From: Pseudodesulfovibrio portus
GTDB lineage: Bacteria; Desulfobacterota; Desulfovibrionia; Desulfovibrionales; Desulfovibrionaceae
Assembly (NCBI RefSeq): GCF_026000375.1
Contig: NZ_AP026708.1
Location: 2,516,001 to 2,580,000, forward strand
Direction: 5' to 3'
DNA length: 64,000 nt
A model generated the notes under the pieces. That model was not told the origin of the DNA. It searched no databases and saw only the letters and a list, made by a program, of their open reading frames with translations. The position numbers and the translations under genes are program-made. This document shows positions 18,645 through 35,441 of the stretch, in pieces (the first letter of the stretch is position 1; every line of letters starts with the position of its first letter).

Positions 18645-21229
18645 GACGCGCACCTCGCCGTGCCGGGCTCGTGTCCCATTTCCGCCATGAGGGTTTCGAT
18701 GTCCGTCTCGAACCGCTTCCGGTAGCGGAGGATGGCCTCGGGGTCGGCCATGACCATGTCGATCTGCCGGGTGTGCATGAGCAGGTAGCCCAGCATGGCC
18801 ATGGCCTGCTCGGCTGCCTGGCGCGACACGCCCTCCAGTCGGGCGAACAGGGCGTCGTCCCGGACTTCGACGATGAACCCGTGCAGCTCCAGGATGTCGG
18901 CCACCAGGCGGGCCCGGGCGTTGCGCCGCAGCATGTCCGCGCCGCCCCCCTGGAACTGGAACAGGGCGTAGTTCTCATTGGGGTCGTCCCCGGCGAATCC
19001 CTCGATGGTGCAGAAGTGGAAGCCGAAGCGGGACTGCAGGTTGCAGTAGTTCCGGCCCACGATGAAGTAGCTGCGCTCGCCCATGGCGTTGGCGGCGCCC
19101 GGCGACAGGGCCGGGTTCTGGGCCGCACTGGTGAGCACGGAGATGAATCCCTTGACGCAGACCGGGGGCGGGCCTTCCCACTGCACGGCGGTCATGCCCT
19201 TCCACAGGGCCTGCATGACGTTGGAGCGGACGTCTTCCAGGCTGATGGTCTTGTCGTCGTCGGAGCCCGACGTGCCGCCGCCGATGTCCACCAGCCAGTA
19301 CTGCATGGTGCGCCCGGCCTTGAGCCGGCGGGCGCTGCCCTCGGGCCGCCTGCCTCCTGCAAACATCTCGGCCACGCCCTTTTCGTGGCAGAACCGGGCG
19401 ATGTCGTGCAGGGTCCGGCACCGGTCCGGCCTGAAGTCCGGGGACTCCGGGTCGGTCAGGTTCAGGGGGGAGATGAACGTGAGCACGCTTTCAAGGGCCT
19501 GGGTCACGTTGGTCGGCTTGCGCGGCTCGTTCCGTTCGGCTGCGTCGTGAATCTGCTGCTGCCGGTGGCCGAGGTAGATGGTGCCGGTGGAGCCGTTGAC
19601 GGTGACGATGGACACGCCGGACAGCCGCTCCATGGCGCCCGGCGCACCGATCAGGGCCGGGATGCCGAATTCGCGGGACACGTTGGCCAGGTGCCCGGCG
19701 GCGCTGCCGTATTCCGTGACCAGGGCCGAGGCCCTCGGGAGCAGGGCGGATAGCTGGGGCCGGGCGTTGCGGGCCAGCAGGACCGCGCCGTCCGGGAAGC
19801 GGAGCATGTCGTCGTCGGTCCCGACCTTGAACACGTAGCCCGAGGCCGCGCCGGGACTGGCCGGGATGCACCCGCTGAGCAGGGTGAACGGCCTGTCCGC
19901 GTCGTTGTCCGGGGGCGGCGAGACCGGGAATCGGCAGACCGCCAGGGGGCGGCATTGCAGGATGGTGATCCGGCCGTCGCGCGAAAGCGCCCACTCGATG
20001 TCCTGCGGGTGCTTGAAATGTTCCTCTATGCGGGCGGCGGTGCGGGCCAGGCGCAGGGCGTCGGTTTCGGAGATGGCCGGGGCCATGCACGCCTCGCCGT
20101 AGACCTTTTCCTTGCCCACGCTGCCGTCGGAGCGGAGCACGTAGCGCACGCTCTTTTCCGCGATCTCCCGGTCCAGGACCTCCATGGTCTTGCGGTCGAT
20201 GACCCATGAATCCGCCTGGGAGCTGCCGTCCACCACGGCGCAGGGCAGGCCCGGAACGGCGTTGATGACGATCCGGCGGCCGTTGTTGCCCATGGGGAAG
20301 CGGGTGTAGGCCACCCCGCCCGCTGCGGCACGCACCATCTCCATGCAGCCCACGGGCATGACCATCTCGTCTTCCCTGAGCCCCCGGTTGAGGGTGTAGG
20401 TCATGGCCGTGGCCGAATACAGGCTGGCCAGGACCGCGCGGTAGGCGTCGGGCAGCCGGCGCGGCCTGACGCCGAGCTTCGACAGGAACTGGCCCGCGTA
20501 GCTGGCCCGTTCCGAGTCCTCGCCCAGGGCGCTGCTGCGCACGGCCAGCAGGGGGTCGCCCATGCGCTCGCAGGCCGTGCGCATGGCGGTCTCCAGCTCG
20601 GGCGGCAGGGGGGCCAGGTCGATGGCACGGCGGATGGACTCCTCCAGTGCGCGGAGTTCCTCCAGGTCCCGGCATCCGTGAATCTGGATGAGGCGGTTGA
20701 TTTCGTCGGCGAGCCGGGTCCGCTCCATGAACAGGTGGAAGGCGGAGGCCGTGACGGCGAATCCGTCGGGCACGTTGACGCCCAGGGCAGAACGGACCTC
20801 GCCGAGCAGGGCCATCTTGGACCCGGTCTCGGGCATGGACCCGGCCCGGATATCGGCCATGTACAGGATGAGCGGGCCGGTGGGTCTGGCCGCCTGGGCG
20901 TTCAGGGTCTGGTCCATGGACTGGACGATGTCGTTGAACACGCCCCGCAGCTCTTCGTATTTGCCGGGGGCCATGCGGCAGAGGCGTTCGATCATCTGGC
21001 GCACGCCCGCCGCCACCTTGAGGCTCTGGGCCCGGACGTGGGCGATGCCGAGAACGGACCCGGAGCGGGTCGCTTCCTGCATCTCGGCCATGGTCTCGAG
21101 GGCCTTGTTGTTGGCCGCCAGCAGCAGCCGGAAATTTTCGGACTTGGCCAGGAACGTGCCCCTGGTTTCCGCGTCCCGGTCCTGCTGCCTGTGGATGAAG
21201 TTGAAAAAGGTCTTGATGGCTGTCTTCAT
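18641..21229 (-). CDS. PEP/pyruvate-binding (PpsA-like) protein without the PEP-utilising barrel
   Basis: 862 residues. About 1-125 is an all-helical extension. About 130-430 resembles the ATP-grasp domain of PEP synthase/PPDK (GSKMALLGEV, GDPLLAVRSSALGEDSERASYAGQ, DIEWALSRDGRITILQCRP). About 445-565 is the swivelling phosphohistidine domain with the canonical TEYGSAAGHLANVSREFGIP, including the phospho-acceptor H513. The remaining ~290 residues do not resemble the PEP-binding TIM barrel and are unknown to me. The protein could thus make phosphohistidine from ATP and pass it to an unknown acceptor, or act as a PEP-synthase-derived regulator. It starts 12 bases before the next operon boundary with kinase overlap ATGA, in the middle of a signalling operon. 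Confidence 0.85.
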   Translation of the reverse strand: MKTAIKTFFNFIHRQQDRDAETRGTFLAKSENFRLLLAANNKALETMAEMQEATRSGSVLGIAHVRAQSLKVAAGVRQMIERLCRMAPGKYEELRGVFNDIVQSMDQTLNAQAARPTGPLILYMADIRAGSMPETGSKMALLGEVRSALGVNVPDGFAVTASAFHLFMERTRLADEINRLIQIHGCRDLEELRALEESIRRAIDLAPLPPELETAMRTACERMGDPLLAVRSSALGEDSERASYAGQFLSKLGVRPRRLPDAYRAVLASLYSATAMTYTLNRGLREDEMVMPVGCMEMVRAAAGGVAYTRFPMGNNGRRIVINAVPGLPCAVVDGSSQADSWVIDRKTMEVLDREIAEKSVRYVLRSDGSVGKEKVYGEACMAPAISETDALRLARTAARIEEHFKHPQDIEWALSRDGRITILQCRPLAVCRFPVSPPPDNDADRPFTLLSGCIPASPGAASGYVFKVGTDDDMLRFPDGAVLLARNARPQLSALLPRASALVTEYGSAAGHLANVSREFGIPALIGAPGAMERLSGVSIVTVNGSTGTIYLGHRQQQIHDAAERNEPRKPTNVTQALESVLTFISPLNLTDPESPDFRPDRCRTLHDIARFCHEKGVAEMFAGGRRPEGSARRLKAGRTMQYWLVDIGGGTSGSDDDKTISLEDVRSNVMQALWKGMTAVQWEGPPPVCVKGFISVLTSAAQNPALSPGAANAMGERSYFIVGRNYCNLQSRFGFHFCTIEGFAGDDPNENYALFQFQGGGADMLRRNARARLVADILELHGFIVEVRDDALFARLEGVSRQAAEQAMAMLGYLLMHTRQIDMVMADPEAILRYRKRFETDIETLMAEMGHEPGTARCAS

Positions 21230-21244
21230 GTCATGCCTCCGGGG

Positions 21245-21628
21245 TTAGGACCGCGTCCGCGACCGGGATTTGACCGCGTCCATGACCTTGAAGAACAGCT
21301 CGTCGGTTCCCACCGGCTTGAGCAGGAAGTCGAAGGCCCCCATGTCCATGCCCTGGATGAGGGTCTTGTGGTCGGCATGGCCCGTCAGGATGATCACCGG
21401 CAGGTCCGGGGCCGCAGCCTTGATGCGGCGCAGGGTCTCTATGCCGTTCATTTCCGGCATCATGACGTCGAGAATGACCACGTCGAAGTCGGTTTCCCCG
21501 ATCCTGTCCAGGGCCTCCGGGCCGCTTGAGGCGATGGTCACCTCGGCGTTTCTGCGGATGAACCGGCGCGAATAGGCGGTCAGGAAGTCCTTTTCATCGT
21601 CAACGAGCAGCAGGCGTATCTTTTTCAT
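21245..21628 (-). CDS. Stand-alone response regulator receiver protein
   Basis: 127 residues, a single receiver domain: LLLVDDEKDF, phospho-acceptor in VVILDVMMPEMNG, Thr in ILTGHAD and Lys in FLLKPVG. The start at 21628 has GGAG 8 bases upstream; an open upstream extension is GC-rich shadow. It precedes the PEP-synthase-like gene by 15 bases and follows a strong hairpin (21658-21684) that separates it from the Yip1-like gene. Confidence 0.92.
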   Translation of the reverse strand: MKKIRLLLVDDEKDFLTAYSRRFIRRNAEVTIASSGPEALDRIGETDFDVVILDVMMPEMNGIETLRRIKAAAPDLPVIILTGHADHKTLIQGMDMGAFDFLLKPVGTDELFFKVMDAVKSRSRTRS

Positions 21629-21657
21629 GTCGGTTCTCCCGGGCGTTGCCCTTCCTG

Positions 21658-21684
21658 GGTCGGGGGCAGGGGGCGCCCCCGACC
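21658..21684 (-). other. Intercistronic hairpin
   Basis: GGTCGGGGGC (21658-21667) pairs with GCCCCCGACC (21675-21684), a perfect 10-bp stem. No T-run follows on the transcribed strand, so it is more likely an mRNA stability or processing element than a terminator. It divides the operon between the membrane-protein part and the signalling part. Confidence 0.6.
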
Positions 21685-21738
21685 GGAGGGGAGGGGAATG
21701 CACCGTAGTGTTTGCGCTGGAAGGAGTATGGTGCATCC

Positions 21739-22290
21739 TCACTGAACAATCGATTTGAGCTCCAAGACGAGCGGGGCCGCGCTCCAGAAGAAAAGCAGCA
21801 GCAGGACACCGGTCAGGATCACCATCAGCCCTGCCTTGACCTTGCCGATGCCGAGCATCTTGACCAGGCCGATGCCCACCAGTACGGCGCGGACCGGCTC
21901 CATGATGATGGCCAGCCCCGGTATCCAGGACACGACCATGACCGCGCCGCTGGCGTATGCGTAGATGTTGAAGACCCGGCCAAAGGGCACGCGCCCCTGC
22001 CCGGTCATGCCGAGCAGGATGAAGGTGATCACGGCCGCGAACGCGGGCATGAGCACGGCGTTGGCCATCATGACCACGCCCATGACCAGGGAGTTCTCGA
22101 AAAAATACGTCATGGAAACCGAGCAGTAGAAGATGCCGGAGATCATGAGGAAAAGCAGCGCCCTCCGCGAGCCGGTCTCGGCTGCGGCCCGTTCGAAGTG
22201 GCGGGCCGGGGAGCGCATGACGTCGAAGATGATTTCGAAGTATTCCTTGATGCCGAGCTTGGTGGAGGTCCGGGCGGTGGTGGCTTCCAT
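21739..22290 (-). CDS. Yip1-family-like integral membrane protein
   Basis: 183 residues with about five membrane segments. The N-terminal cytoplasmic helix EYFEIIFDVMRSPARHFE and the layout (short tail, then a five-helix bundle) match bacterial Yip1 domain proteins. The motif GRVFNIYAYASGAVMVVSWIPG with a buried Tyr/Ser pair is typical. Biochemical role unknown in bacteria; often next to transporters or envelope genes. It begins 12 bases after the stop of the 49-residue membrane protein, so the two are co-translated. Confidence 0.82.
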   Translation of the reverse strand: MEATTARTSTKLGIKEYFEIIFDVMRSPARHFERAAAETGSRRALLFLMISGIFYCSVSMTYFFENSLVMGVVMMANAVLMPAFAAVITFILLGMTGQGRVPFGRVFNIYAYASGAVMVVSWIPGLAIIMEPVRAVLVGIGLVKMLGIGKVKAGLMVILTGVLLLLFFWSAAPLVLELKSIVQ

Positions 22291-22302
22291 GGTGAGGTCT
22301 CC

Positions 22303-22452
22303 CTAGAAATGGGTCATGGCGTAGTCGATGACGCCCCAGGTGAGCATGGCCAGGGTGAGCAGGAAGAGAACCCGCCGCTCCGTCCGCTTGGTGTAGTAGG
22401 TGACGCCGGCCTTGTGGAAGAAGGATCGTTGTTCGTCGTTGTTGCGTTCCAT
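22303..22452 (-). CDS. Small membrane protein (49 residues) next to SLC13 transporter
   Basis: Too short for most gene finders. ATG at 22452 with AAGGAG about 7 bases upstream, stop TAG at 22303-22305. Residues 1-26 are polar and basic (ERNNDEQRSFFHKAG...TKRTERR), and residues 27-46 form a single membrane helix (VLFLLTLAMLTWGVIDYAM), giving an N-in topology. It sits between the SLC13 transporter and the Yip1-like gene and could be a transporter-associated subunit or regulator. I do not recognise the family. Confidence 0.75.
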   Translation of the reverse strand: MERNNDEQRSFFHKAGVTYYTKRTERRVLFLLTLAMLTWGVIDYAMTHF

Positions 22453-22470
22453 GTCTGTTCTCCTTGTTGG

Positions 22471-22496
22471 CCCGGCGGCCCCGTGGGGCCGCCGGG
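22471..22496 (-). other. Intercistronic GC hairpin downstream of the SLC13 gene
   Basis: CCCGGCGGCCC (22471-22481) pairs perfectly with GGGCCGCCGGG (22486-22496) around a 4-base loop. No T-run follows, so partial termination or protection of the upstream transporter message is more likely than full termination. It lies between the SLC13 gene and the small membrane protein gene. Confidence 0.6.
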
Positions 22497-22519
22497 ATAT
22501 ATGTCCCGCCTCAGCTTCG

Positions 22520-24370
22520 TCAGAAGCCGGGCAGGTTGTTGAATCCGATGCCGCTCCAGTAGACCGCCGTCAGGACGACGATCATGATGTTGGCGACAAA
22601 CCACATGGGAATGCCGACCCTGATGTAGTCCTTGGGCTCCAGGTAACCGGAGGCGTAGACGATGGCGTTGGGCGGCGTGCCGATGATCAGGCAGTAGGCG
22701 AACGAGGAAGCGACCGCCGTTGCCATGGCCATGAACGGCAGGAAGGTGGTGCCGGGGTGCACGATGCTGGCCATGTTCAGGGTGATGGGACCGACCGCGG
22801 CGGCAGCCGGGCCGTCGGCCATCAGGTTGGTCAGCACGGCGGTCAGCCCGTTGGAGGTCAGCATCAGCGGGATGCCCTGGTCCATGCCCAGCGGGGCCAG
22901 CATGTCGATGACGGACTGGGCCAGCCAGTAGGCTGCGCCGGTCTGGTCAAGGGTGCGGCCGAAGATGATCGCGCCCGCGTACAGCCAGACAACGCCCCAG
23001 TCGACCTTTTCCTGGTAGTCGCGCCAGTTGACCACGCCCGCCAGGAGGTAGGCCACCGCACCGGCAACCGCGATGACGCCGATGCCCAGCCGGATGGGGT
23101 AGATGCCCATGTTGTAGAATTCCTTTTCCGTGAACCAGCCGAAGACCATGACCGCGAAGATGATCATCGCCCAGATCTGATGCTTGTTCCACTTGCCCAT
23201 CTTGCTGATCTCGCCTTCGAGGTGGCGCATTGCCGGGGCCAGGGAGGTGATGCGGGGCTTGAAGATCACGTTGGTCACGATCCAGGTGATGGGGATCATG
23301 ATGATGACGAACGGCATGCAGTAGAGAATCCACTGGGCGTATCCGATGTCCATGCCGAACATGTCGGTCAGGTAGGTCATCATGATGACGTTTCGGGCGC
23401 CGCCCGAAGGTGCGCCGGGGCCGCCGATGTTGCAGGCCATGGCGATGGTGATCATCAGCATCTTGGCCAGCTCCTTGTCCTCGGGGACTTCATCGGACAG
23501 GCTGTTCTGGTAGAGCAGCATGCCGATGGGCAGGAACATGGCCGCCAGGGCGTGGTCCGAGATGAACGCGGCCAGCGGGCTGATGACGATGAAGAAGATG
23601 AGCGTGATCCAGCGAACGTTGGGCACGGCCAGCTTCTTGAACATCATGAGGCACATGCGTTTGTCCACGCCCGTCTTGACGAACGCGGCGGCGAACATGA
23701 GCGAACCCATGATGAACCAGCAGGCGTCGGACCAGTAGAGTCCGGCCACCTGGCTGCGGGACACGACCCCGGTGAAGACCAGGATCAGGCCGATGCAGAA
23801 GGCCACGCCGGGCAGGGGGATGCACTCGGTCATGAAGCAGAAGACCACGAACACCACCAGGGCGATGGCCACCTTGATGTCCCAGGCGCCCTTGTCGGCA
23901 CTCTTCTGGTCCGGCTTGGACAGGGTGTCGTACTTGAGCCCCTTCATGCGCAGGTCGAACGCGCTCTTCATGGTTTTGAGGTACGCCTCGGCCGAGACCG
24001 AGTCCTTGATGAAGTCCGACGCCCGCTTGAAGTTGGTCGAATCAACTGGAATCTTGTACTTTTTCGCCCACTTGAGGTCCCGCTTCATGAGACGATCCTT
24101 GGACAGTGCGCCCATGCGCATGTTCTGTTCCATCATCCGGGCGGTGAGGAGCTCCCATTGCTCGCAGTCCGCGCTTTCCTTGTTGAAGAGCTCGGTGCAC
24201 AGGAAATCGACTACCTTGTCGGGGCCGATCGAATACTGCATGCCCACGTCCTTCATCCCCTTGGGCGTGGGGAGGACGAGGACCGCAGCGAAAAGGACAA
24301 CCGGGAATATGAAGAGCTTCCAGTTGACATACTTGTCGTAACCGGTCGCTTTTTTCTTATCTTGAGCCAT
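22520..24370 (-). CDS. SLC13 (DASS) family anion transporter
   Basis: Inner-membrane uptake protein for di/tricarboxylates or inorganic anions such as sulfate, usually sodium- or proton-coupled; 616 residues. After a first membrane helix (about 18-38) there is an unusual periplasmic insert of ~120 residues, then the DASS core (about 160-616). Key signatures: CNIGGPGAPSGGARN (first SNT-like anion/sodium motif, here with Pro and Gly in place of SNT) and the second in FAYCLIIGTPPNAIVYASG. The start at 24370 has AGAGG 6 bases upstream. The ligand is not deducible; the altered first motif hints at an atypical substrate. Operon neighbours include REC-CBS protein, a small membrane protein and NhaB. 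Confidence 0.9.
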   Translation of the reverse strand: MAQDKKKATGYDKYVNWKLFIFPVVLFAAVLVLPTPKGMKDVGMQYSIGPDKVVDFLCTELFNKESADCEQWELLTARMMEQNMRMGALSKDRLMKRDLKWAKKYKIPVDSTNFKRASDFIKDSVSAEAYLKTMKSAFDLRMKGLKYDTLSKPDQKSADKGAWDIKVAIALVVFVVFCFMTECIPLPGVAFCIGLILVFTGVVSRSQVAGLYWSDACWFIMGSLMFAAAFVKTGVDKRMCLMMFKKLAVPNVRWITLIFFIVISPLAAFISDHALAAMFLPIGMLLYQNSLSDEVPEDKELAKMLMITIAMACNIGGPGAPSGGARNVIMMTYLTDMFGMDIGYAQWILYCMPFVIIMIPITWIVTNVIFKPRITSLAPAMRHLEGEISKMGKWNKHQIWAMIIFAVMVFGWFTEKEFYNMGIYPIRLGIGVIAVAGAVAYLLAGVVNWRDYQEKVDWGVVWLYAGAIIFGRTLDQTGAAYWLAQSVIDMLAPLGMDQGIPLMLTSNGLTAVLTNLMADGPAAAAVGPITLNMASIVHPGTTFLPFMAMATAVASSFAYCLIIGTPPNAIVYASGYLEPKDYIRVGIPMWFVANIMIVVLTAVYWSGIGFNNLPGF

Positions 24371-24402
24371 GTCTAACCTCTGTGTTTTGAACTTCAATTA
24401 AA

Positions 24403-25302
24403 TCAGCTCGATGAGATGATTTTGGCGATTTCATAGAACAGCTCCTGCTCACGCACCACGCCGACATCGGCGTTGTCCGCCTGCACCAGCATGCGCCGGG
24501 CCGGGAGGGACACCATGGTGTTGGCCACCTCCATGAGGTTGGCCTGGGCGTCGATGACCGGAATGTGCGCGGTCATGAAATCGCGGACCGGTTTGTCCAT
24601 GATTTCCTTCACCCTGGAGGTGAACAGCCCCTGCCAGAACATGGCGGAGTATTGCAGGCTGTCGGCCATGGCCGGTTTGGGCGCGGACAGGTATTCGGGC
24701 CTGACCGCGTCGATGAGGTCCTGGGGGCTGAGGAGCCCGGCCACGCTGCCGTCGAGGTTGGTGACCACCACCGAGCGGTGCCCGGTGTCCATGAGCCTGT
24801 CCGTGGCCATCAGATGGCGCATGGCTTTTTCCAGTGCCTTGATGGCGTCCCGTACGGTGGATTCCAGGGGAATCTGGGTGTACCGTTCCAGGGGGATCAT
24901 GATGTCGCCCGCCAGTTTTTCGATGTAGGCGACCTTGGTGGCGTAGTCGTGGGCGTCCTTGATCTTGGCGCTCAGCAGATCCACGTCACACGGTTTGGCC
25001 AGGTAGTCGTATGCCCCGGTGTCATAGGCTTTCTGGGCGCTGGGAACGCCGCCGTGCCCGGTCAGCATGATGACCGGCGTGTCCGGTGTCCTGGCCTTGA
25101 TGAGTTTCAGAGTTTCGTGGCCGTCGAGTCCCCCCATCTTGACGTCGAGGATGACGACATTCGGGTTCTCGGCCATTTTTTCCAACGCCTCTTCACCGCT
25201 GGCCGCCAGGATCGTGTCGAATCCCTTGCGGTCCAGGATTTTCGCCGTGGTGACGCGGAATCGTTCCTCATCGTCGACCATGAGGACCTTGATTTTTACC
25301 AT
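24403..25302 (-). CDS. Response regulator: receiver plus paired CBS domains
   Basis: 299 residues. Receiver at about 1-120 (VLMVDDEERF, phospho-acceptor in VVILDVKMGGLDG, MLTGHGG, YLAKPCD). Two CBS motifs follow (about 135-205, MIPLERYTQIPLESTVRDAI and HRSVVVTNLDGSVAGLLSPQDL; about 240-299, VRDFMTAHIPVIDAQANLMEV). CBS pairs bind adenosine nucleotides and often gate transporters or enzymes, so phosphorylation may set a nucleotide-responsive regulator of the SLC13 transporter encoded 32 bases downstream. GGAGG lies 5 bases before the ATG at 25302. Confidence 0.92.
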   Translation of the reverse strand: MVKIKVLMVDDEERFRVTTAKILDRKGFDTILAASGEEALEKMAENPNVVILDVKMGGLDGHETLKLIKARTPDTPVIMLTGHGGVPSAQKAYDTGAYDYLAKPCDVDLLSAKIKDAHDYATKVAYIEKLAGDIMIPLERYTQIPLESTVRDAIKALEKAMRHLMATDRLMDTGHRSVVVTNLDGSVAGLLSPQDLIDAVRPEYLSAPKPAMADSLQYSAMFWQGLFTSRVKEIMDKPVRDFMTAHIPVIDAQANLMEVANTMVSLPARRMLVQADNADVGVVREQELFYEIAKIISSS

Positions 25303-25321: not shown

Positions 25322-25759
25322 CTATCGCAGTTCGTCCTGTCCGCCATCGGCTTCGGCCATGCGGGCAGAACGGATTTTCTGTTTCTGGAGCGTGACTTTC
25401 TCGAAGGCCTCTTCCGCCTTCTTGAGGAAATCCTTCATGCTCACAGGCTTGATCAGGTAGTCCTGGGCACCGAGCTTCAGTCCTTCCACGGCGGTTTCCA
25501 TGGTCGCGTGCCCGGTGAGGATGATGACTTCGGTGAGGGGATGGCTCTTCTTGATGCGCTGCAGGGTTTCGATGCCGTCCATCCCGGGCATTTTGATATC
25601 GAGGAAAATGACGTCCACTTCACGCGACTGGAGCAGCTCCAGCGCTTCCCTGCCCGAGTTGGCCGTCAGGGCCTCAATGCCGATTTTATCGAAGAGTTTT
25701 TTTGTGGTGCTGAGCAGCCGCTCTTCATCGTCCACCAGCAGGATTGTCATTTGTTCCAT
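25322..25759 (-). CDS. Stand-alone response regulator receiver protein, operon leader
   Basis: 145 residues, a single receiver domain: ILLVDDEERL, phospho-acceptor in VIFLDIKMPGMDG, ILTGHAT, YLIKPVS, then a charged helical tail. First gene behind the sigma-54 promoter at 25812-25828. The start at 25759 is chosen over an upstream in-frame ATG at 25834, which lies upstream of the predicted transcription start. The ribosome site is weak (GGTGG). 19 bases separate it from the REC-CBS gene. Confidence 0.9.
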   Translation of the reverse strand: MEQMTILLVDDEERLLSTTKKLFDKIGIEALTANSGREALELLQSREVDVIFLDIKMPGMDGIETLQRIKKSHPLTEVIILTGHATMETAVEGLKLGAQDYLIKPVSMKDFLKKAEEAFEKVTLQKQKIRSARMAEADGGQDELR

Positions 25760-25811: not shown

Positions 25812-25828
25812 AGCAACCGGTGTGCCAA
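25812..25828 (-). promoter_or_regulatory. Sigma-54 (RpoN) promoter of the minus-strand operon
   Basis: On the minus strand: TTGGCACACCGGTTGCT, an exact match to TGGCAC-N5-TTGC with GG-N10-GC spacing. Transcription should begin near 25801, about 42 bases upstream of the first receiver gene. An activator ATPase is required for such promoters; one is encoded at 31074-33605. Confidence 0.85.
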
Positions 25829-25870
25829 ACACAAAAGTCTAATATAATTGATCTAAATTAAGAAAAATTG

Positions 25871-25887
25871 CGCAAAACAACTTTGCG
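25871..25887. repeat. Inverted repeat CGCAAA-N5-TTTGCG, possible activator site
   Basis: Perfect 6-bp arms (25871-25876 and 25882-25887) about 75 bases upstream of the predicted sigma-54 transcription start. The same arms with a 9-base spacer occur at 30920-30940 near the second sigma-54 promoter. Candidate upstream activator site; assignment is inferred. Confidence 0.4.
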
Positions 25888-26074
25888 TGATAGATCGCCG
25901 GGGCCTGGACGCGGGAGTGGAGAGAGGGTGGGGAGGAAATGGGGCGGGGGGCTGAAGCCCGCTTCCGGGCTTGGAAGGGTTGTGATTTCCGGGGCGGGGA
26001 TATGGGAGAGGGGTCTAGCAAGGCATGGTTGGTGCATGTTACGGTTGCGTGACAACCAACCTTGGAGAGACATT

Positions 26075-29000
26075 TTGCCCTTTCGTTCGCTGTACTACGA
26101 CGCCAATGACTACAAGCTGCTTGAAATCCTGAATGATTTGATGCAGCGGGGGGTGGACCGGTCGCATTTCAAGACCATCCTGGAACCGTACCTCCGGCCC
26201 CACGGCATCAAGGAGCTGGCCGCCGATCCCGGCCTGCGCATCGGCTACGCCATCATGCACCTGCTGCAGTCGCTCAAGTCCGATCAGGCCGCCGACCGCA
26301 TCAAGGCGCTCAACGCCCTGCGCGACGAGACCCTGGCTGCGTCCAGGGGGAGCATGCGCAACAACCGGGCGCGGGTCCTGGTGCAGATAGGCAAGGAGCT
26401 GATCCGGGCCGAAGGCATGGAGGACAGGCAACTCGAACTTGCCCACGACTTCAGGCGGGCGGCCATCGGCAAGGTCGGCTTCCTGCGCAAGCAGCTGCGC
26501 AAGTACCACCTTCTGGAAATGCCCGAGGAGTGGAACCAGATCACCTTTGACGACCGGGTCCACGACGCCAACAGCAAGGGGCGCAAATCCGCAACCCACC
26601 TGATCATGGACGCCTGGGTCAAGGGCATCCGCAACCTGACCGTGGTCTATTACAACTTCATGGACCCTGCCGTGGCCAGGGAGCTGTTCGCCTCGGCCCG
26701 CATACTCGGCGTGAACGCCAGCATCGGCATCGAGTTCCGGGCGCGCTTCCGGGACCGGTACGTCAAGATCGTCTGGGGGCCCAACGGGCTGCGGGACGAC
26801 GGCGACATCGAGGAGTTCTTCCGCCAGGAGCCGGTCCGGGAACTGATGCGCCTGGGCCAGGAGGTGCAGGCGCGGCGGACCCGCTACGTGCGCGACGTGA
26901 CCACGGCCTTCAACGAAGTGCACCGCGAGTCCATCCGCCAGGAATTCGGCATTTCCCTGCCGCCCGTGGACTACCGCGCCGTGGAGCGGGTCATCGGGAC
27001 GGGCCAGCCGTCGGTCTACCACCTGGGCAACCATATCCACGAGGAGGCCCTGCCCCTGTTCGCCGAGCGGGTCGAAGCCCTGCGCCGGGAGTACGTGGAT
27101 GCGGACTACGACGCCAAGGCCGCCATCGCCATGCAGGTCGAGTCCCTCGACGCCCTGGATGCGGACACGCTCATCGCGCGCTACCTGCTCCCGGCGGAAA
27201 ACCCGGCCATACCCGATCCGGACGTGGTGTCCGGCGAGGACGGCCCGGAGCTGCTCAGTCTGACGCCCGCCGAGTTGACGGCCCGGTTGCGCAGGGCGTG
27301 CCCGTCCAGCAGCCTGACCCTCATCCTGGCCGACCTCGACCTGTCCGACGTCATCGAGATACTCTACGACTGCCAGGGGCGCATCACCCATTTCGAGGTC
27401 TTCAACACCAAGTTCCTGACCGATCTCCAGGTCCGGCAGCGCAGGCCGTTCAGCCAGTTGCAGCAGGCCATCAACGAGCAGAACGCCGTGGTCCTGAAGC
27501 GGATGATCCGCAACCGAATCGAGCGGTTCCGTGATGAGCCGGACAACCACGACAGGGCAGCACGGCTGGAGGCCATTCTTCCGGATTTCAACCGGCTGCT
27601 CGACCGCTATCGGCGCACGCCCCTTCAGTCCGCCGTGGGCAGCGGGTCCACGGGCCGGTCGTCCCGCACCCACGGCATGGGCTTTGCCGTGGCGGAAACC
27701 CTGCCGTTCAAGGCGCAACGGGAGCTGCGGCGCAGGCCGCCTTCCAGCTGCATCCCCGTGGCCGGGTCGGCCTTCGCCTCCGTGGAATTCATTCCGCCCC
27801 GAGGCGGCGGGTTGTCCGGCCGGATAGCCCGTTTCGCCTCCCGGTTGCCGGGCCTGCGCGGGCTCTTCTGTCAAACCCGCCACTGGTGGCACGTCGACGA
27901 GCTGCGCATAGACGCCACGGCCTGCGGCGACGTGGTCACCCTGGGCGGCATCAGCCAGGAGGGCAACGGGCTGACCCTGTTCGAGGAGCAGGAAGCAAAG
28001 GAAGGGGGGCCGCCCCTCGGACGGCTCAACACCGCGCTGATGAACGCGCTCAAGGTCGTGGCCGGTTTCGTCCCCGCCTTCCTGACCTTCTGGCTGACCA
28101 AGGACTGGTGGGTGCTCGCCTACCTGGGCGGGGTGATCTGGTTTTTCATCACCGGCTTCCGCAACGTCATCCAGTCCGTGCTCGGCGGGGGCGGGTTCCG
28201 CCGATCCCCCCACCTGGCCTGGAACGACTACATCAACTGGGAGCGCATCGCCGACTCCCTGCTCTACACCGGCTTCTCCGTCCCCCTGCTGGACTGGTTG
28301 TGCAAGTCCATGCTCCTGGACCGGGGGCTCAACATCACCACGGCCACCAGCCCGCTCCTGCTCTACACCATCATGGCCGTGACCAACGGCGTCTACATCT
28401 CCGGCCACAACATCGTCCGGGGGCTGCCGCGCAAGGCGGCCATGGCCAACTTCTTCCGCTCCATCCTGTCCATCCCGGTGGCCATAGCGCTCAACGGCGG
28501 GATAGGCTCGCTCCTCTCCATTGTCGGCGTGGCCGACGTTGCGGCGGTCCTGCAACTCTGGGCTGCGGTCATTTCCAAGCTGGCCTCGGACTTCGTGGCC
28601 GGGATCATCGAGGGACTGGCCGACCGGGCGTACAACATCTCCATGCGCAAATGGGACTACACGGAAAAGATCCGCCAGGTGTTCGAGCTGTTCACCCGTC
28701 TGGAGATTCTTTTCCCCACTCGGAACATGCTCGACGCGTTGCGCTCGCCCGCCGAGTTCATGGAGCTGTCCCGGGCCGGGGAGGTGGACCACGTATCCGC
28801 CCTCATGGCCAATGCTTTGGATCTACTCTATATCCGGGCCTACAAGCCCCGGGCGGGCGATGCCCTGCGCCAGGCCATGGAGCGGATGACCCGCGACGAG
28901 CGCGCCGTGTTCGTTGCCTCGCAGCAGATACTCAGGGAAGAGAAGGAGGTGGCCACCCTGTTCGTGAACGGCCTCGTGGGCCGCAACTTCTCCAAGGCGC

Positions 29001-29098
29001 TTTCCTTCTACCTGCTTCGGTACGCCCCGTACCTGGACGAGCTGGAGGGACTGGCCCGGTCGCTCGACCGGACCGGCGAGATCGATGGGTGTCTGTAG
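26075..29098 (+). CDS. Large membrane protein of unknown function (about 1007 residues)
   Basis: I do not recognise this family. About residues 1-560 are soluble and mixed helix/strand with many Arg/Asp (for example VYYNFMDPAVARELFASARILGVNASIGIEFRARF), and a region near 360-470 with LTLILADLDLSDVIEILYD. From about 650 there are roughly six membrane helices (KVVAGFVPAFLTFWLTKDWW onward), and the last ~200 residues are again soluble and helical. I use the TTG at 26075 because GGAGAG lies 7 bases upstream; an ATG at 26036 in the same frame has a poor ribosome site. It is divergent from the sigma-54 operon and convergent with a Cache kinase gene. It could be a membrane-linked enzyme or signalling protein. 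Confidence 0.72.
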   Translation: MPFRSLYYDANDYKLLEILNDLMQRGVDRSHFKTILEPYLRPHGIKELAADPGLRIGYAIMHLLQSLKSDQAADRIKALNALRDETLAASRGSMRNNRARVLVQIGKELIRAEGMEDRQLELAHDFRRAAIGKVGFLRKQLRKYHLLEMPEEWNQITFDDRVHDANSKGRKSATHLIMDAWVKGIRNLTVVYYNFMDPAVARELFASARILGVNASIGIEFRARFRDRYVKIVWGPNGLRDDGDIEEFFRQEPVRELMRLGQEVQARRTRYVRDVTTAFNEVHRESIRQEFGISLPPVDYRAVERVIGTGQPSVYHLGNHIHEEALPLFAERVEALRREYVDADYDAKAAIAMQVESLDALDADTLIARYLLPAENPAIPDPDVVSGEDGPELLSLTPAELTARLRRACPSSSLTLILADLDLSDVIEILYDCQGRITHFEVFNTKFLTDLQVRQRRPFSQLQQAINEQNAVVLKRMIRNRIERFRDEPDNHDRAARLEAILPDFNRLLDRYRRTPLQSAVGSGSTGRSSRTHGMGFAVAETLPFKAQRELRRRPPSSCIPVAGSAFASVEFIPPRGGGLSGRIARFASRLPGLRGLFCQTRHWWHVDELRIDATACGDVVTLGGISQEGNGLTLFEEQEAKEGGPPLGRLNTALMNALKVVAGFVPAFLTFWLTKDWWVLAYLGGVIWFFITGFRNVIQSVLGGGGFRRSPHLAWNDYINWERIADSLLYTGFSVPLLDWLCKSMLLDRGLNITTATSPLLLYTIMAVTNGVYISGHNIVRGLPRKAAMANFFRSILSIPVAIALNGGIGSLLSIVGVADVAAVLQLWAAVISKLASDFVAGIIEGLADRAYNISMRKWDYTEKIRQVFELFTRLEILFPTRNMLDALRSPAEFMELSRAGEVDHVSALMANALDLLYIRAYKPRAGDALRQAMERMTRDERAVFVASQQILREEKEVATLFVNGLVGRNFSKALSFYLLRYAPYLDELEGLARSLDRTGEIDGCL

Positions 29099-29123
29099 CG
29101 CCTGACATCAACCGGGCGCAGTG

Positions 29124-29144
29124 GGAAGCGGTTTGGCCGCTTCC
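29124..29144. terminator. Hairpin between convergent genes
   Basis: GGAAGCGG (29124-29131) and CCGCTTCC (29137-29144) form a perfect 8-bp stem with a 5-base loop between the ends of two convergent genes. No strong T-run on either side. Confidence 0.5.
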
Positions 29145-29158
29145 GGGAAAACGCCGCG

Positions 29159-30850
29159 TCAGGAGGCCTTCATGCCCGGGATGGTCACCGTGAATGTGGT
29201 GCCTTCGCCCTTGCGGCTCGCGACCGACAGTTCGCCGCCCATGGAGTCGATGATGGAGTGGCAGACGGACAGTCCCAGCCCGGTGCCCTGGCCCGGTGCC
29301 TTGGTGGTGAAGAAGGGCATGAAAATCTTGCCCAGGTGATCACGGCTCATGCCCGTGCCGTTGTCGGACACCGTGATGACGGCGTTCCCCCTGTCGTCCT
29401 TCTGGGCACTGACCTCTATTTCGCCGCCCTCGCTCCCGTGGCGTTCCACCACGGCGTGGATGGCGTTGTTGACCAGGTTGATCATGACCTGCTGCAACTG
29501 GCCCGGGTCCGCCTGGATGGTGGGGATGTGCGGAGCCACGTCGCAATGCAGCTTGATGCCGTGCACCTGGGCCTTGTTCTCGACCATGGACCATAGCCTG
29601 GGCAGGTAGACGGCCATCTCGAGCGGTTGGGTGCAGGGGGCGTCCTGCCTGCCGAAGCGCAGGATTTCCCGGGTGATGGCCGCGCACCGGTCTATCTGGA
29701 TATTGAGCTGGTTGGCGATGGAGGTCAGTTCGGCCTTCGCTTCATTGTTCTCCCCGTTGTCCGCTTCGCGCTCGGTGATGTCCTTGAGGGTCAGGTCGAA
29801 CAGGGCCAGGTCCGCTTTCATGATCTGGAGCGGGTTGTTGATCTCGTGGGCGAACCCGGCGGCCATCTCGCCCAGTTCGGCCAGCCGGGCGGCCTGGAGC
29901 AGCTGTCCTTCCAGCTTGCGCACGGCCTCGGTCTTTTCCTCCATGGCGTCGGACAGCCGCCGACTGACCACGATGGCCAGCACCACGACCACGGCGCCGC
30001 CGCACAGCAGGCAGAGCAGCACGGTGTACCCGGCCATGACCGTGTCGTTGAAGGCCTCGGCCGTCTTCTGGCGGACGATGAGCCGCCATTTCCCGTCGTT
30101 GAGCGGGGCCGACGCGGACAGATAGCCCTCGCCGTCCTTCTCGTCGGTGAAGGTCATGAGATCGCCCTGCTGGGGCGGGTAGACGGAGTCGTCCTCTTCC
30201 AGCAGCGCGCCGCCCGACCGCCGCCCGGTCTGGAACCGGTTCTCACGGTTCAGGACGTACGCCTCGCCGGAGTCGCCGATGTTGACCGCGTTGACGATGT
30301 CCTCGAACACGGCGGAGTTGATGGTCGCCCGCAGGACCCACGGGCGGCCGTCGATGCGCCTGACCACGGCGGCCACGAAGTGCGGCACGTTGCGATAACC
30401 CAGAAAGACGTCGCTGACGTAATAGCCCATTCTGAGGGTCTCCACGTACCACGGGGCCTGCCGGTAGTCCTTGTTCAGCAGGTCATAGGGACCGGCGTAG
30501 GCGGTGTGGGTCCCGTCCGGGCCGATGATGCCCATGTCCTGGAAGGCGCCGCCGCCGGTCTTGAGCATGGCCGCGACCTCCTGCCGGGCGAACTCCCCGG
30601 TCAGGGCTTCGGGCGGCAGCAGGGACAGGAACGACTCCAGGTCGCCCCGCCGTTCCTTCAGGAAGTCGTCGATCATCCTCCGGTGGTCCACCACGGCCTG
30701 GCTCAGGGAGGAGACGGCGTATCCTCTGGTGGTTTCGGAAAAGGCGTAGAAACCGATAGCCGCAGTCAACAGAAGCGGGATGGCGGGTACCAGGATCATG
30801 GATATGAGGAGCAGGCGGCGAATCTCGCAAGGTTTCGATGGGGTGTTCAT
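29159..30850 (-). CDS. Cache-domain membrane sensor histidine kinase
   Basis: 563 residues. Membrane helix at about 13-33, extracytoplasmic double-Cache domain (about 35-285, with QAPWYVETLRMGYYVSDVFLG and RPWVLRATINS), second membrane helix (about 290-310), coiled linker, HisKA (acceptor histidine in GFAHEINNPLQIMKA) and HATPase (NLVNNAIHAV, DNGTGMS, GQGTGLGLSV). Its sensor resembles that of the kinase at 16971-18644 (shared YVSDVF/YISDVF and W-[IV]-L-R-A-T-I). It has its own consensus sigma-54 promoter (30962-30978) and is divergent from the sigma-54 activator gene, suggesting both belong to one circuit. Confidence 0.94.
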   Translation of the reverse strand: MNTPSKPCEIRRLLLISMILVPAIPLLLTAAIGFYAFSETTRGYAVSSLSQAVVDHRRMIDDFLKERRGDLESFLSLLPPEALTGEFARQEVAAMLKTGGGAFQDMGIIGPDGTHTAYAGPYDLLNKDYRQAPWYVETLRMGYYVSDVFLGYRNVPHFVAAVVRRIDGRPWVLRATINSAVFEDIVNAVNIGDSGEAYVLNRENRFQTGRRSGGALLEEDDSVYPPQQGDLMTFTDEKDGEGYLSASAPLNDGKWRLIVRQKTAEAFNDTVMAGYTVLLCLLCGGAVVVVLAIVVSRRLSDAMEEKTEAVRKLEGQLLQAARLAELGEMAAGFAHEINNPLQIMKADLALFDLTLKDITEREADNGENNEAKAELTSIANQLNIQIDRCAAITREILRFGRQDAPCTQPLEMAVYLPRLWSMVENKAQVHGIKLHCDVAPHIPTIQADPGQLQQVMINLVNNAIHAVVERHGSEGGEIEVSAQKDDRGNAVITVSDNGTGMSRDHLGKIFMPFFTTKAPGQGTGLGLSVCHSIIDSMGGELSVASRKGEGTTFTVTIPGMKAS

Positions 30851-30917
30851 GGTGAATGCTCGATTTTTTTGCGCGTGAAGATCAAAAATACCATTGTATT
30901 TTAAATAGTTAAAAAAT

Positions 30918-30942
30918 CTCGCAAAAATAAGCCCTTTGCGAG
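30918..30942. repeat. Inverted repeat CTCGCAAA-N9-TTTGCGAG
   Basis: Perfect 8-bp arms (30918-30925 and 30935-30942) just downstream of the predicted sigma-54 start of the Cache kinase gene, in its leader. It shares the CGCAAA/TTTGCG arms with the repeat at 25871-25887. Could be a protein-binding site or an mRNA hairpin. Confidence 0.45.
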
Positions 30943-30961
30943 TCGTTGTCCCGTGTAATTA

Positions 30962-30978
30962 AGCAATCGTCGTGCCAG
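30962..30978 (-). promoter_or_regulatory. Sigma-54 (RpoN) promoter of the Cache kinase gene
   Basis: On the minus strand: CTGGCACGACGATTGCT, matching TGGCACG-N4-TTGC with exact GG-N10-GC spacing. Predicted start near 30951, about 100 bases before the kinase start codon. Confidence 0.85.
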
Positions 30979-31073: not shown

Positions 31074-33605
31074 ATGCCCACCGCGCCCGCCACATCTGAT
31101 AGGCCCAAGCCGGACAAACGGTTTTTTGTCGGGCGGTTTCCGGTTTTCGGCCGGGTCGTCCGCCGGTTCGGCCTGCGTGGAAAGCTGCTCCTGGCCCTGC
31201 TGCCGCCCATCGTGGCGGTCCTGCTGGCCACGGGGTATGCCTCGTACACGGTGACCGAGGAGTTCATCGACATCGCCCTGGAGCGGACGGTGAAGCTGCA
31301 CACCCTGGCAGTGGCCCACGAGGTGGAGCAGTACCTGGACGAATGCCGCAGGGACCTGCTCTTCCTTGCCCGCGGCGACCTGTCGGCTGACGGGCTGCAG
31401 ACCGTGTTCGAGCGGCGCATGGGCGTGGGCGGCAAGGCATACTTCGAGTTGTGCTTTGTCCCGGCCACGGGCGGCGATCCGGTGGCCATGGTCCGGCAGG
31501 GGGACATCGTCCGCCGCATGGGCGCGGACGGCCTGGCCAAGGTGCGGCCCAACCCCTTTGCCCAGCTGGACATGCTGGCCTCCCTGGCCGACGGGCAGGT
31601 GGAGGTCTCGGACGTCGTGGAGGTGACCTATCCCATGCCCACCGCCGCCGCAGCCAACCGGTACGAGACGCGACAGGTCATCCGGCTGGTCACCAGGGTG
31701 CCGGGCAGCGACACCACCCCGCCGGGGCTGCTCTTCATCTCCCTTGAAGCCGCCAAGCTGCGCAACATCCTTTCCTGGTACAACTCGGACAAATCGCCGT
31801 TGTGGGCCTTTCCGCGCAGCGACGAGTTGCGCTTCAGCTATTTCCTCAACCGGGACGGGTGGATGCTTTTTCAGTCCGAGGACTACGCGCAGGGGGACAA
31901 GCCCCTGACCACCTATCTGGCCCGCGAGAACTTCTCCGGCACCCTGGGCAAGGCCGGGCAGGAAGCGGCCTTCCGGCCGAACGAGAAGTACCTCCGCTAC
32001 TGGACGGTGGTGGAGGACATCCGCAAGGGCGAGAGCGGTCTGAGGAAGGTTGCCCAGGAGCGGGGGGGCAGGTCCGCAGTGGACTCCTATTACTTCGGCT
32101 ACGCTCCCGTGGTATTCCTGTCCGTGCCGGGCCGGGAGCCCGAGGTGCTGGGCGGGGTTGTCTTCGTGGACCGGAGCCAGCTTCCCGTGGTGGCCGGCTA
32201 CAAGAACCTCGACGTGATGCTGTTCGTGACCATTGGCGCCATCATACTGATTTCGTTTTTCATCTTCTGGTTCGGTCGGATTCTGACCAAGCCCATCCGT
32301 GAGCTGGCCGCCGAGGTCAACTCCATCAGTTCCCTGGAGGACATGGAGGAAATCCGTCTGCCGTATTCAGGGTTCGACATCACCACCCTGCAGGAGTCCA
32401 TCAACAACATCATCCGGCGGGTCCGCCACCAGGTGGAGGAGATTCAGGCCAGGGATGAGGTCATCCTCAACGTCAACAAGCGCGAGCGTGCCTCCCTTGA
32501 CCGGGAGAAGGGAGTCCTGGCCGAGGCGGAACTGAGCCGCATCCCGGAGATCGTGGGCACCGGGCCGGCCATCGCCAACCTCAAGGTCAACATTCTCAAG
32601 GCCGCCCAGGTGGACGTGGACGTGCTCATCACCGGCGAGACCGGAACCGGAAAGCAGCTGGTGGCCGAGGCCGTGCACAACCACGGCAGCCGCAGCGAGA
32701 AACCGTTCGTTTCCATCAACTGCGGGGCGCTGGACGAGAACCTGCTCCTGGACGCCCTGTTCGGCCACGTCAAGGGGGCCTTTTCCGAGGCCAAGGACGA
32801 CCGCAACGGCGCCTTCGTGGAGGCGGACGGCGGCACCCTGTTCCTGGACGAGATCCAGTCCGCGTCGCCCAAGGTCCAGCAGTCCCTGCTCCGGGCCCTG
32901 GCCTCCCGGCGGATCAAGCCCCTGGGCAGCGACCGGGAACTGGTCGTGGACGTGCGCATCGTGGCCGCCACCAACGTGGACATCCCCTCGCTGATCGAGA
33001 ACAGGACCTTCCGCGAGGACCTGTACTATCGGCTGAAGGTGGTCTCCATCACCACACCGGCCCTGCGCGAGCACCGGGAGAACATCCCGCTGCTCAGCGT
33101 CTACTACCTCAGGCAGGCGGAGCAACTGGCCGGTCGGGAGACCCTGGACCTGAGCAAGGGGGCGCTGGCCAAGCTGGTGGCTTACGACTGGCCCGGCAAC
33201 GTCCGCGAGCTGGTGAACTGCATCACCAGGGCTGCGGTGATGGCCGAGACGGACATCATCCAGGTCGAGGAGATTCGTCTGGAGAACGAGGCGTATGCGC
33301 TGTATCCGGTGCCCGATGCGCAGGAGAAGGATTCGCCGGAACCGGAGGACGCGCCCCGAAGCGTTCCGGACCGCCCGGCGATCGTGAAGCCGTCGCCCGC
33401 CGAGCCGGAGCTGAACCCGCGCCAGAAGGAGGCGTGGCCGCAGATCCGCAAGCGGGAACGGGTCACGCGCAAGGAGTACCAGGATATGGTCGGGGGGGAC
33501 TTGTCTTCCCGGACCGCCATCTATGATTTGCAGGACTTCGTCAAACGCGGGCTGCTGATCAAGCGGGGCCGGGGACCGTCCACCACCTACGAGGTGGTCG
33601 GCTGA
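31074..33605 (+). CDS. Membrane-anchored sigma-54 activator (bEBP) with GAFSEA loop
   Basis: 843 residues. Membrane helices at about 38-58 and 380-400 enclose a large extracytoplasmic sensor, followed by a HAMP-like linker and coiled coil. The AAA+ domain (about 490-735) has Walker A GETGTGKQ (521-528), Walker [10 protein letters not shown], sensor I RIVAATN and arginine fingers in FREDLYYRL. The sigma-54 contact loop, normally GAFTGA, reads GAFSEA (568-573). The usual Fis-type DNA-binding helix-turn-helix is missing; instead the last ~65 residues (about 778-843) look like a winged helix ([20 protein letters not shown]). AGGAGG lies 5 bases before the ATG at 31074. Probable activator of the two sigma-54 promoters in this window. 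Confidence 0.9.
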
Positions 33606-33617
33606 TCCGGGCCTGCA

Positions 33618-35441
33618 TCAAGCGCCGACGGCCGAGCGGAACGCCCCGGCGATGCGTTCTGCGTTCCGGCCGATGATGACCACGAAGCAGTCCCCGGCGT
33701 CCTCGGCGGGCGTCAGGTCGTGGTGTCCCGGCACGTACTGGAACACCTCGGGCGCGGCGGCGTCCGTGAACCGGACCACGCCCTTGGCCCGGAGCACGTC
33801 GTCCGGAAGCCCGGCCACGCCGTCCCGGAAGGATTGCCGGTCCAGGGGCGATTCGAAATCGATGAGCGCGCTCTGGATGGAGTCGTCCTCGTGGGTGGCA
33901 TGATGGCCGCCCATGGGCGGCAGGAACGGGGCGGGCCGGTTGAGCCGTTTGCGGAAGTTGACGCCGTAGAGCGCCGTGGACGGGACGTTGCCGTGGGTGG
34001 TGCGGTGGATGTCCGCCGTGGGGTTGAGGTCGCGGATTCGCGTCTCCAGCTCGCCCAGGGCGTCGCCGTCCGCCAGGTCGGTCTTGTTCAGGAGCAGGAT
34101 GTCGGCCAGCCTGACCTGGCTGCGGGCCACCTCATGGTCCGTGAGGGCGCGCAGGCCGCAGGCCGCGTCGAGCACCGTGGTCACGGAAGCGAATTCGAGC
34201 ATGTCGTCCAGGTCGGCGATCTCCGACAGCAGGTTGGCCGGGTTGGCCAGCCCCGTGGTCTCCAAGACCACGAAATCCGGTTGAAATTCAGACAGGATGC
34301 CCGTCAGGGCCGCGCGCAGGCTGCCTGCCAGCGTGCAGCAGACGCACCCCTCGTCCACCTCGGTCACGGCGTAGTGCTGGCCGAGCAGCTTGCCGTCCAG
34401 CCCCTTCTGGCCGATCTCGTTCTGGACCACGGCCACGAACCCGTTGCGTCCGGCCTGTTCCTCGATGAACCGGGCCAGGAACGTGGTCTTGCCCGACCCG
34501 AGGAACCCGGTCAGCAGGATGAGCCTCGGCTTTTCCGTGATGCCCATGGTCCGCTTGTCCAGGGAGTTGGCCGCGCCGGGGATGTCGCCGGTCAGCCAGG
34601 GTGCGCCGTCGAATTCGGCGGGCAGCGGGTCGGGCGCGTTCCAGGCGAGGTCGGGGACGGACATGTCCGGGTTGTCCGGCACGGCCATGTTCCAGCCGAG
34701 GCCGAAGCGGACGTCCCTGCCGTCGGGCGCGGGTTCGGACTTCATCCCGGCGTCGCCGCCGTAGACCCTGCGCATGCCGGGCCGGGAGGAGCGGCTGAGG
34801 GATTGCGGCCCATGGCCCATGCAGTATGAGGCCGAGGCGGCCAGGGATTCGAAAAAGGGCAGGGCCGTGTCCAGGGCGGGCAGGTCCTGGTCCGTGCCGC
34901 CGGGAGCGACGGCCTGCACCGGGCCGTTCTGCGTGGTCACGGTGACGCCGTCCAGGGCGGTGACCGTGTCCCTTTCCGGCGCGGTCAGGGCCAGCGACAC
35001 GCCCGGGCCTTCCGGGCTGAAGTGGATCTCCACCACGGCCACGGTGAACAGGGAGCGCAGGTCGTCGTACAGGGTGAATTCGCGCACCCGGTCGAGGTAG
35101 TCCGGGGCCTGGGCGGCGATGCCCGCCTCGATGGAAAAGGATTCCACCAATTCTTCTTCAGGGTCCGGGAAATAGACGATGCCCATGGTGGCCAGGCCCG
35201 CGCCCCCCTGGTCCATGGCGTTCAAAAGATAGAGCCCGAACACGCCGGTCATGCCCGTGACCTTGGCGGTCAGCCCGCCCTTGCCCTTGGCGCAGTCGCG
35301 CACTCCGCGCCATCCCAACCGGTGGCGCACGCCGGGGATGAAGTTGGCCCTGGTGATCAGGGCGCGGGGCAGTTCCACGGCGGCCTGCACCGGGTTGTCC
35401 AGCAGGGCGGGGGGGAGCAGGGTGTTCAGTCGTCCGTGCAT
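33618..35441 (-). CDS. CobW/COG0523-type GTPase fused to an N-terminal domain of unknown function
   Basis: 607 residues. The C-terminal half is a G3E GTPase, probably a metal-delivery protein: Walker A TGFLGSGKTTFL (about 315), the metal-binding CxCC motif in DEGCVCCTLAG, LLNKTDLAD (NKxD) and the CobW C-terminal domain with RAKGVVRFTD. The first ~300 residues are unlike any domain I know; the segment KGGLTAKVTGMTGVFGLYLLNAMDQGG is conserved-looking, and a low-complexity proline-rich linker (about 250-300) joins the two. The cognate metal (Zn, Co or Fe) is not determinable. Downstream of the MBL-fold gene on the same strand, separated by a GC hairpin. Confidence 0.85.
   Translation of the reverse strand: MHGRLNTLLPPALLDNPVQAAVELPRALITRANFIPGVRHRLGWRGVRDCAKGKGGLTAKVTGMTGVFGLYLLNAMDQGGAGLATMGIVYFPDPEEELVESFSIEAGIAAQAPDYLDRVREFTLYDDLRSLFTVAVVEIHFSPEGPGVSLALTAPERDTVTALDGVTVTTQNGPVQAVAPGGTDQDLPALDTALPFFESLAASASYCMGHGPQSLSRSSRPGMRRVYGGDAGMKSEPAPDGRDVRFGLGWNMAVPDNPDMSVPDLAWNAPDPLPAEFDGAPWLTGDIPGAANSLDKRTMGITEKPRLILLTGFLGSGKTTFLARFIEEQAGRNGFVAVVQNEIGQKGLDGKLLGQHYAVTEVDEGCVCCTLAGSLRAALTGILSEFQPDFVVLETTGLANPANLLSEIADLDDMLEFASVTTVLDAACGLRALTDHEVARSQVRLADILLLNKTDLADGDALGELETRIRDLNPTADIHRTTHGNVPSTALYGVNFRKRLNRPAPFLPPMGGHHATHEDDSIQSALIDFESPLDRQSFRDGVAGLPDDVLRAKGVVRFTDAAAPEVFQYVPGHHDLTPAEDAGDCFVVIIGRNAERIAGAFRSAVGA

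Follow-up and report, generated by a model that had tools for sequence, protein, structure and literature searches.

The window analysed here, a stretch of 64 kb from the sulfate reducer Pseudodesulfovibrio portus, contains a cluster of sensing and ion-transport genes beside the gene of a sigma-54 activator. The following genes were assigned:

31074 to 33605, plus strand: activator (bEBP), predicted to comprise a transmembrane helix (residues 38-56), a dCache domain (57-374), a second transmembrane helix (381-399), an AAA+ domain (493-736) and a winged helix (782-841)
29159 to 30850, minus strand: HK1, dCache histidine kinase, target of P2 (PF02743, PF02518)
26075 to 29098, plus strand: 1,007-aa protein, target of the candidate promoter P3; TTG start with GGAGAG before it, start taken from ortholog comparison
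25322 to 25759, minus strand: RR1, stand-alone receiver, first gene after P1 (PF00072)
24403 to 25302, minus strand: receiver-CBS protein (PF00072 and PF00571)
22520 to 24373, minus strand: DASS/SLC13-type sodium-coupled anion symporter (TIGR00785 over cut-off; relatives of VcINDY)
21739 to 22290, minus strand: small multi-pass membrane protein with several hydrophobic segments
21245 to 21742, minus strand: receiver protein, start approximate, by homology to the other receivers of the cluster
18641 to 21229, minus strand: PEP-synthase-like protein (PF01326 and PF00391; ATP-binding and phosphohistidine domains)
16971 to 18653, minus strand: HK2, dCache histidine kinase
16573 to 17000, minus strand: receiver protein, start approximate; receiver sequence at the end of the open reading frame 16573-17943
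15614 to 16576, minus strand: HK3, histidine kinase with one transmembrane segment
15220 to 15648, minus strand: receiver protein
13539 to 15188, minus strand: NhaB sodium/proton antiporter, last gene of the run (NF007093 over cut-off)

For comparison we used 14 orthologous loci, namely the window and 13 others in which the kinase and the RR operon are located beside the activator gene. They were drawn from genome contigs and from a search of 149 genomes of the family.

The run which starts at P1 and leads from RR1 to NhaB is apparently continuous. It includes a gap of about 230 bp (22291-22519), and a separate internal promoter is therefore possible within it. The occurrence of both a sodium-coupled importer and a sodium/proton antiporter in one run points to uptake of an anion, organic or inorganic, driven by sodium. 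The receiver-CBS gene (24403-25302) lies directly before the gene of the DASS symporter, a pairing found in 14 of 14 loci. Pfam revealed no DNA-binding or AAA+ domain in the two receivers that were scanned, and the remaining three have about 140-165 aa each. Since the receivers are single-domain or CBS-fused proteins without a DNA-binding domain, the output of the phosphorelay is likely a protein-protein interaction. Perhaps, and with low confidence, it acts on the transporter or on the PEP-synthase-like protein; the receiver-CBS protein could be a transporter regulator.

Structures of PEP synthase match the PEP-synthase-like protein at residues 121-577 only. An unrelated C-terminus replaces the PEP-binding barrel, and two paralogs are present in the genome. 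The protein may phosphorylate an acceptor. In relatives, PEP-synthase-like genes are often found beside this activator family. At one further locus (L066), a similar activator lies beside a set of a Usp-like protein, a TSUP-like permease, a receiver and a PEP-synthase-like protein, in which the Usp-like and TSUP-like members were named by eye; this arrangement makes the activator and the PEP-synthase-like protein resemble one module that is combined with varying transporters. The reading frame at 33621-35441, convergent to that of the activator, encodes a protein with a long N-terminal region and, from residue ~308 on, a CobW-like GTPase domain.

The promoter elements assigned to these genes are the following:

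25812 to 25827, minus strand: P1, sigma-54 promoter (-24/-12) of the RR/transporter operon; exact consensus, TGGCACACCGGTTGCT, predicted start ~25801
30962 to 30977, minus strand: P2, sigma-54 promoter of HK1; exact consensus, TGGCACGACGATTGCT, predicted start ~30951
26021 to 26036, plus strand: P3, candidate third sigma-54 promoter, of the gene for the 1,007-aa protein; AGGCATGGTTGGTGCA, a weaker match than P1 and P2
30986 to 31014, plus strand: putative housekeeping promoter for the activator; TTGACA-N17-TAACGG, separated by 8 nt from the -24 element of P2

P1 and P2 had been described in a preliminary description as minus-strand sites of the form TGGCAC-N5-TTGC with GG-N10-GC spacing, and this is exact for both. 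They had also been said to flank one divergent control region; instead, they are located in two separate intergenic regions 5 kb apart, of which that of P1 is common to the plus-strand gene starting near 26075 and that of P2 to the activator gene. In the whole 64 kb, P1 and P2 are the only exact matches to TGGCAC-N5-TTGCW. The genome contains 13 such matches, versus 4 for the reversed control pattern, so that a pattern match by itself is moderately informative, enriched but no proof. When one mismatch is allowed, 4 sites were found, where 1.8 are expected per 64 kb, and such numbers would leave room for both matches being accidental and the genes being transcribed by sigma-70. At the level of comparison this is refuted, and we regard it as extremely improbable: both exact matches are correctly oriented and at the right distance, and a GG-N10-GC element is present at both places in 14 of 14 orthologous loci, the window included. 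The best sigma-54 element lies 102-156 bp from the kinase start and 65-136 bp from the first receiver gene of the RR operon, and only 0-3% of dinucleotide shuffles match its score on the right strand (14 loci in each case). Gene order is conserved together with both promoters, each of the 14 loci has its activator gene diverging from P2, and rpoN is encoded in the genome (PF04552 at G000:C1:304602-305081). It is this placement and conservation, rather than the pattern match, which decides that the P1 and P2 sites are real.

The preliminary promoter set was right in both of its members and overlooked a conserved third element. A GG-N10-GC element shortly before the gene of the 1,007-aa protein was found in all 8 loci that have the gene and in none of the 6 without it (Fisher p 3e-4, relatedness ignored), and P3 is probably a third sigma-54 promoter. 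An ATG at 26036 lies inside P3; translation therefore probably starts at the TTG at 26075. The encoded protein has hydrophobic stretches near residues 654-833 and no match in Pfam, NCBIfam or PDB. Judged from its occurrence in 8 of 14 orthologous loci, it seems to be an optional member of the system.

In 11 of 14 loci, a TTGACA box is located on the opposite strand 7-8 nt from the -24 element of P2, with a TAACGG-like box 16-17 nt further on. The consensus scan reported no sigma-70 promoter for the activator, and the -10 box is weak; the assignment of the TTGACA box is thus based on its conservation, and on this basis TTGACA-N17-TAACGG probably serves the activator gene as housekeeping promoter. 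Given the tight and fixed spacing to P2, two polymerases would compete here.

The activator frame at 31074-33602, previously noted as adjacent, was confirmed by Pfam (PF00158, E 2.8e-60, plus the AAA+ lid). The Pfam scan revealed no receiver (PF00072) and no sensor or HTH domain. As an N-terminal receiver domain is missing, the protein is not an EBP of the NtrC response regulator type. Two strongly hydrophobic helices (38-56 and 381-399) bracket the sensor domain. Its model, unscored by Pfam dCache_1, aligns with dCache ligand-binding domains (TlpQ LBD: Z 18.4, 235 residues, rmsd 3.5 A). The model of the whole activator has a mean pLDDT of 61.7 (six sequences), with mostly 75-90 for the sensor and low confidence for the AAA+ part; a Foldseek search with it mostly retrieved AAA+ structures, and the sensor emerged from the VIA-align rows. 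Modelled alone, the last 69 residues form a winged helix (pLDDT 91.5) which matches many winged helices, all weakly (E > 0.001). The C-terminus is therewith predicted to be a winged helix instead of a Fis domain, and a putative DNA-binding domain. As modelled, the activator is a membrane-spanning one-component sensor and not a response regulator. Such a build, membrane-spanning and with an own sensor for the outside, is uncommon among sigma-54 activators; to our knowledge, nearly all of those studied are soluble and Fis-type. A literature search for membrane-spanning EBPs with a Cache domain returned nothing on point, which is weak evidence, as subscription papers were mostly outside the search.

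The sigma-54 loop of the activator reads GAFSEA and is non-canonical with respect to GAFTGA. Every relative read has GA[FY][ST][DE][ASG] in this position, and Walker A and Walker B are kept in the activator and across the family. Kazakov et al. list GAFSEA as a loop variant that would retain activity and give GAFTDA as the loop of DVU2106 (PMC4641369). DVU2106 activates the orp operons (PMC3897727). In NorR, the exchange G266D, which turns the second glycine into an acidic residue, still allows activation of sigma-54 and escapes repression by the GAF domain (PMC2941729). Since NorR G266D and the GAFTDA-bearing DVU2106 both activate, GAFSEA is compatible with activity, and by this analogy the change need not abolish sigma-54 activation.

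The changed loop is also one reason to consider that P1 and P2 are real sigma-54 promoters driven by another EBP, e.g. of the response-regulator type, and that the neighbouring protein modulates them or is inactive with sigma-54. The genome encodes about 22 full-length EBP domains (about 20 besides the activator), and three kinases with five receivers could feed such a regulator. Against this stand the domain content and size of the receivers given above and the divergent position of the activator gene at P2 in every locus. Moreover, the arrangement of activator, sigma-54 element and motif (see below) is retained in relatives beyond this subfamily, as are Walker A, Walker B and the acidic loop variant across the activator family. 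We consider control by another EBP rather improbable, and the neighbouring activator remains the preferred regulator.

An unbiased EM motif search over 28 control regions, in which the sigma-54 sites were masked, revealed the motif TTTTGCGYGATTTT, common to the control regions of P1 and P2. Its log-likelihood was 115 at width 12 and 128 at width 14, versus 29-37 for mononucleotide-shuffled sets (width 12); these values are inflated by related sequences, and the held-out tests are more telling. Among 9 held-out activator loci of other subfamilies, the best site beats at least 95% of shuffles in 7, while L063 is borderline (0.055) and L065 fails. With each locus left out in turn, strong scores are obtained for the window and for most P1 regions, and weak ones for several P2 regions (weak scores: P2 of L012, L055, L056 and L057; P1 of L050 and L056). 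Each of the two control regions contains one copy with at least 13 bits, at 25864 and at 30913, and no other copy in the 64 kb reaches this score. The sites in the window are:

25864 to 25877, minus strand: candidate activator site at P1, TTTTGCGCAATTTT, found with the EM motif
25868 to 25890: palindrome at P1, composed of the half-site and a left arm, TCACGCAAAGTTGTTTTGCGCAA, 23 bp
30913 to 30926, minus strand: candidate activator site at P2, TTTTGCGAGATTTT, the highest-scoring copy of the motif in the window, contributing to an inverted repeat at 30918-30942

The half-site at P1 begins 50 nt upstream of the TGG in the window and in L011. Its exact core CGCAAA-N-TTTGCG occurs twice in the window, versus 0.03 expected, and the 23-bp palindrome was found at one place in the genome with up to three mismatches allowed. 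As a conserved unit, the exact palindrome was rejected, for the orthologs retain the half-site but not CGCAAA-N-TTTGCG. CGCAA/TTGCG did not stand out in a generic dyad count and emerged only from the half-site EM search. Taken from its sequence distribution, TTTTGCGYGATTTT is the likely candidate for the site of the activator.

At P2, the motif copy lies 50-52 nt downstream of the TGG, past the start site (window, L011, L050 and L051), and no good upstream TTTTGCGYGATTTT site was found there. The spacing of the inverted repeat (21 bp) differs from that of the palindrome at P1 (17 bp). FleQ of Pseudomonas aeruginosa can activate sigma-54 promoters from downstream sites; it is a soluble protein with a Fis-type DNA-binding domain and binds c-di-GMP, in which the window activator differs. 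The repeat might instead be a hairpin of the kinase mRNA, acting as leader terminator or attenuator, or a repressor site rather than an enhancer. CTCGCAAA and TTTGCGAG (30918-30942), followed by ATTTTTT, are terminator-like and form the main stem of the leader. This reading, which applies to P2 only and is compatible with the preferred explanation at P1, has a modest chance of being correct and is in our view unlikely. L050 and L051 keep the right half-site and not the complementary left arm, so that the DNA motif and not the stem is conserved; for this reason, a conserved RNA leader hairpin was rejected as first choice. In addition, the fold of the leader is not unusual (z -1.07), and the half-site is also present upstream of P1, outside any P1 transcript. 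Between motif and promoter, IHF sites are perfect in L050 and L051, but matches in the window are no better than in shuffles, and involvement of IHF is therefore not claimed.

Elsewhere in the same genome (L072, C1:2719300-2728300), a paralogous set consists of a Cache kinase, three receivers and a TSUP-like permease. It has an exact sigma-54 site (556-571) and, 147 bp upstream, a copy of the motif, TTTTGCGTGATTC (409-422). By its sequence, this set is a possible second target of the activator.

A similar system is DVU0151 of Desulfovibrio vulgaris Hildenborough. Kazakov et al. describe it as having GAFSEA, a long N-terminus, no annotated Fis domain and a winged-helix match in orthologs, and it is predicted to drive a divergent sigma-54 operon (regulon DVU0150-DVU0146; PMC4641369). 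Judged by this description, the window activator fits the DVU0151 family on all listed traits: both are one-component EBPs with GAFSEA, a long N-terminus, a predicted winged helix in place of Fis (for DVU0151 by the match in orthologs) and a divergent sigma-54 promoter of a transport operon. Compared with the DVU0151 system as described there, the window operon adds DASS, NhaB, kinases, five receivers and the PEP-synthase-like protein, and the window a second and probably a third sigma-54 promoter. The transmembrane and dCache N-terminus is a predicted feature of the window activator, whereas the passages on DVU0151 consulted leave the sensing type of its N-terminus unspecified. The orp1-orp2 system of DVU2106, also of D. 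vulgaris (PMC3897727), is alike in its acidic GAFTGA variant, two sigma-54 operons, palindromic sites and a sigma-70 promoter for the EBP gene. In contrast to the window activator, DVU2106 is grouped among EBPs of the Fis type and acts on genes of cell division, and IHF sites were shown in the orp system (PMC3897727), whereas the window has no IHF match above chance.

Taken together, it is quite likely that the whole sensing and ion-transport cluster is controlled by the neighbouring membrane activator via sigma-54 at P1, P2 and probably P3. The dedicated RpoN circuit that had been proposed earlier thus appears well supported by the comparison, with conserved promoters and gene order, rpoN present, a divergent activator gene and the motif in both regions. 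The activator gene would be transcribed at a low level from its housekeeping promoter. Inserted in the inner membrane, the activator would sense a solute outside with its periplasmic dCache domain, a fold known from modelling, and the signal would cross the membrane to the AAA+ ring. The C-terminal winged helix would bind the TTTTGCGYGATTTT sites, as their co-occurrence suggests, upstream at P1 and just downstream of the start at P2, and the ring would open sigma-54 RNA polymerase at P1, P2 and probably P3. In this way, three histidine kinases, five receivers, the anion symporter, NhaB, the PEP-synthase-like protein and the 1,007-aa membrane protein would be produced together. As the activator promoter abuts P2, the polymerase at P2 may compete with activator transcription. 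The non-canonical GAFSEA and the unusual short-range downstream site at P2 count against this circuit, as do the weak motif scores in several loci, the differing spacing of the two repeats and the roughly 20 further EBPs that could act on the promoters. More tentatively, and with somewhat less than an even chance, the membrane-anchored activator with its dCache domain and winged helix might assemble its ring while membrane-bound and act on three promoters spread over 5 kb, in one case from a site downstream of the promoter; its acidic loop would be naturally unlocked and the signal would control it by other means than loop covering.

Naturally occurring acidic variants of GAFTGA are similar to the constitutive mutant NorR G266D, which makes this known mechanistic question addressable in a native protein. 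If the proposed control is true, sigma-54 activators that are membrane-borne, sense the outside and are widespread in this bacterial family would widen the rules of AAA+ control. The circuit would also offer a context for the many uncharacterised Cache kinases, lone receivers and PEP-synthase-like proteins of sulfate reducers.
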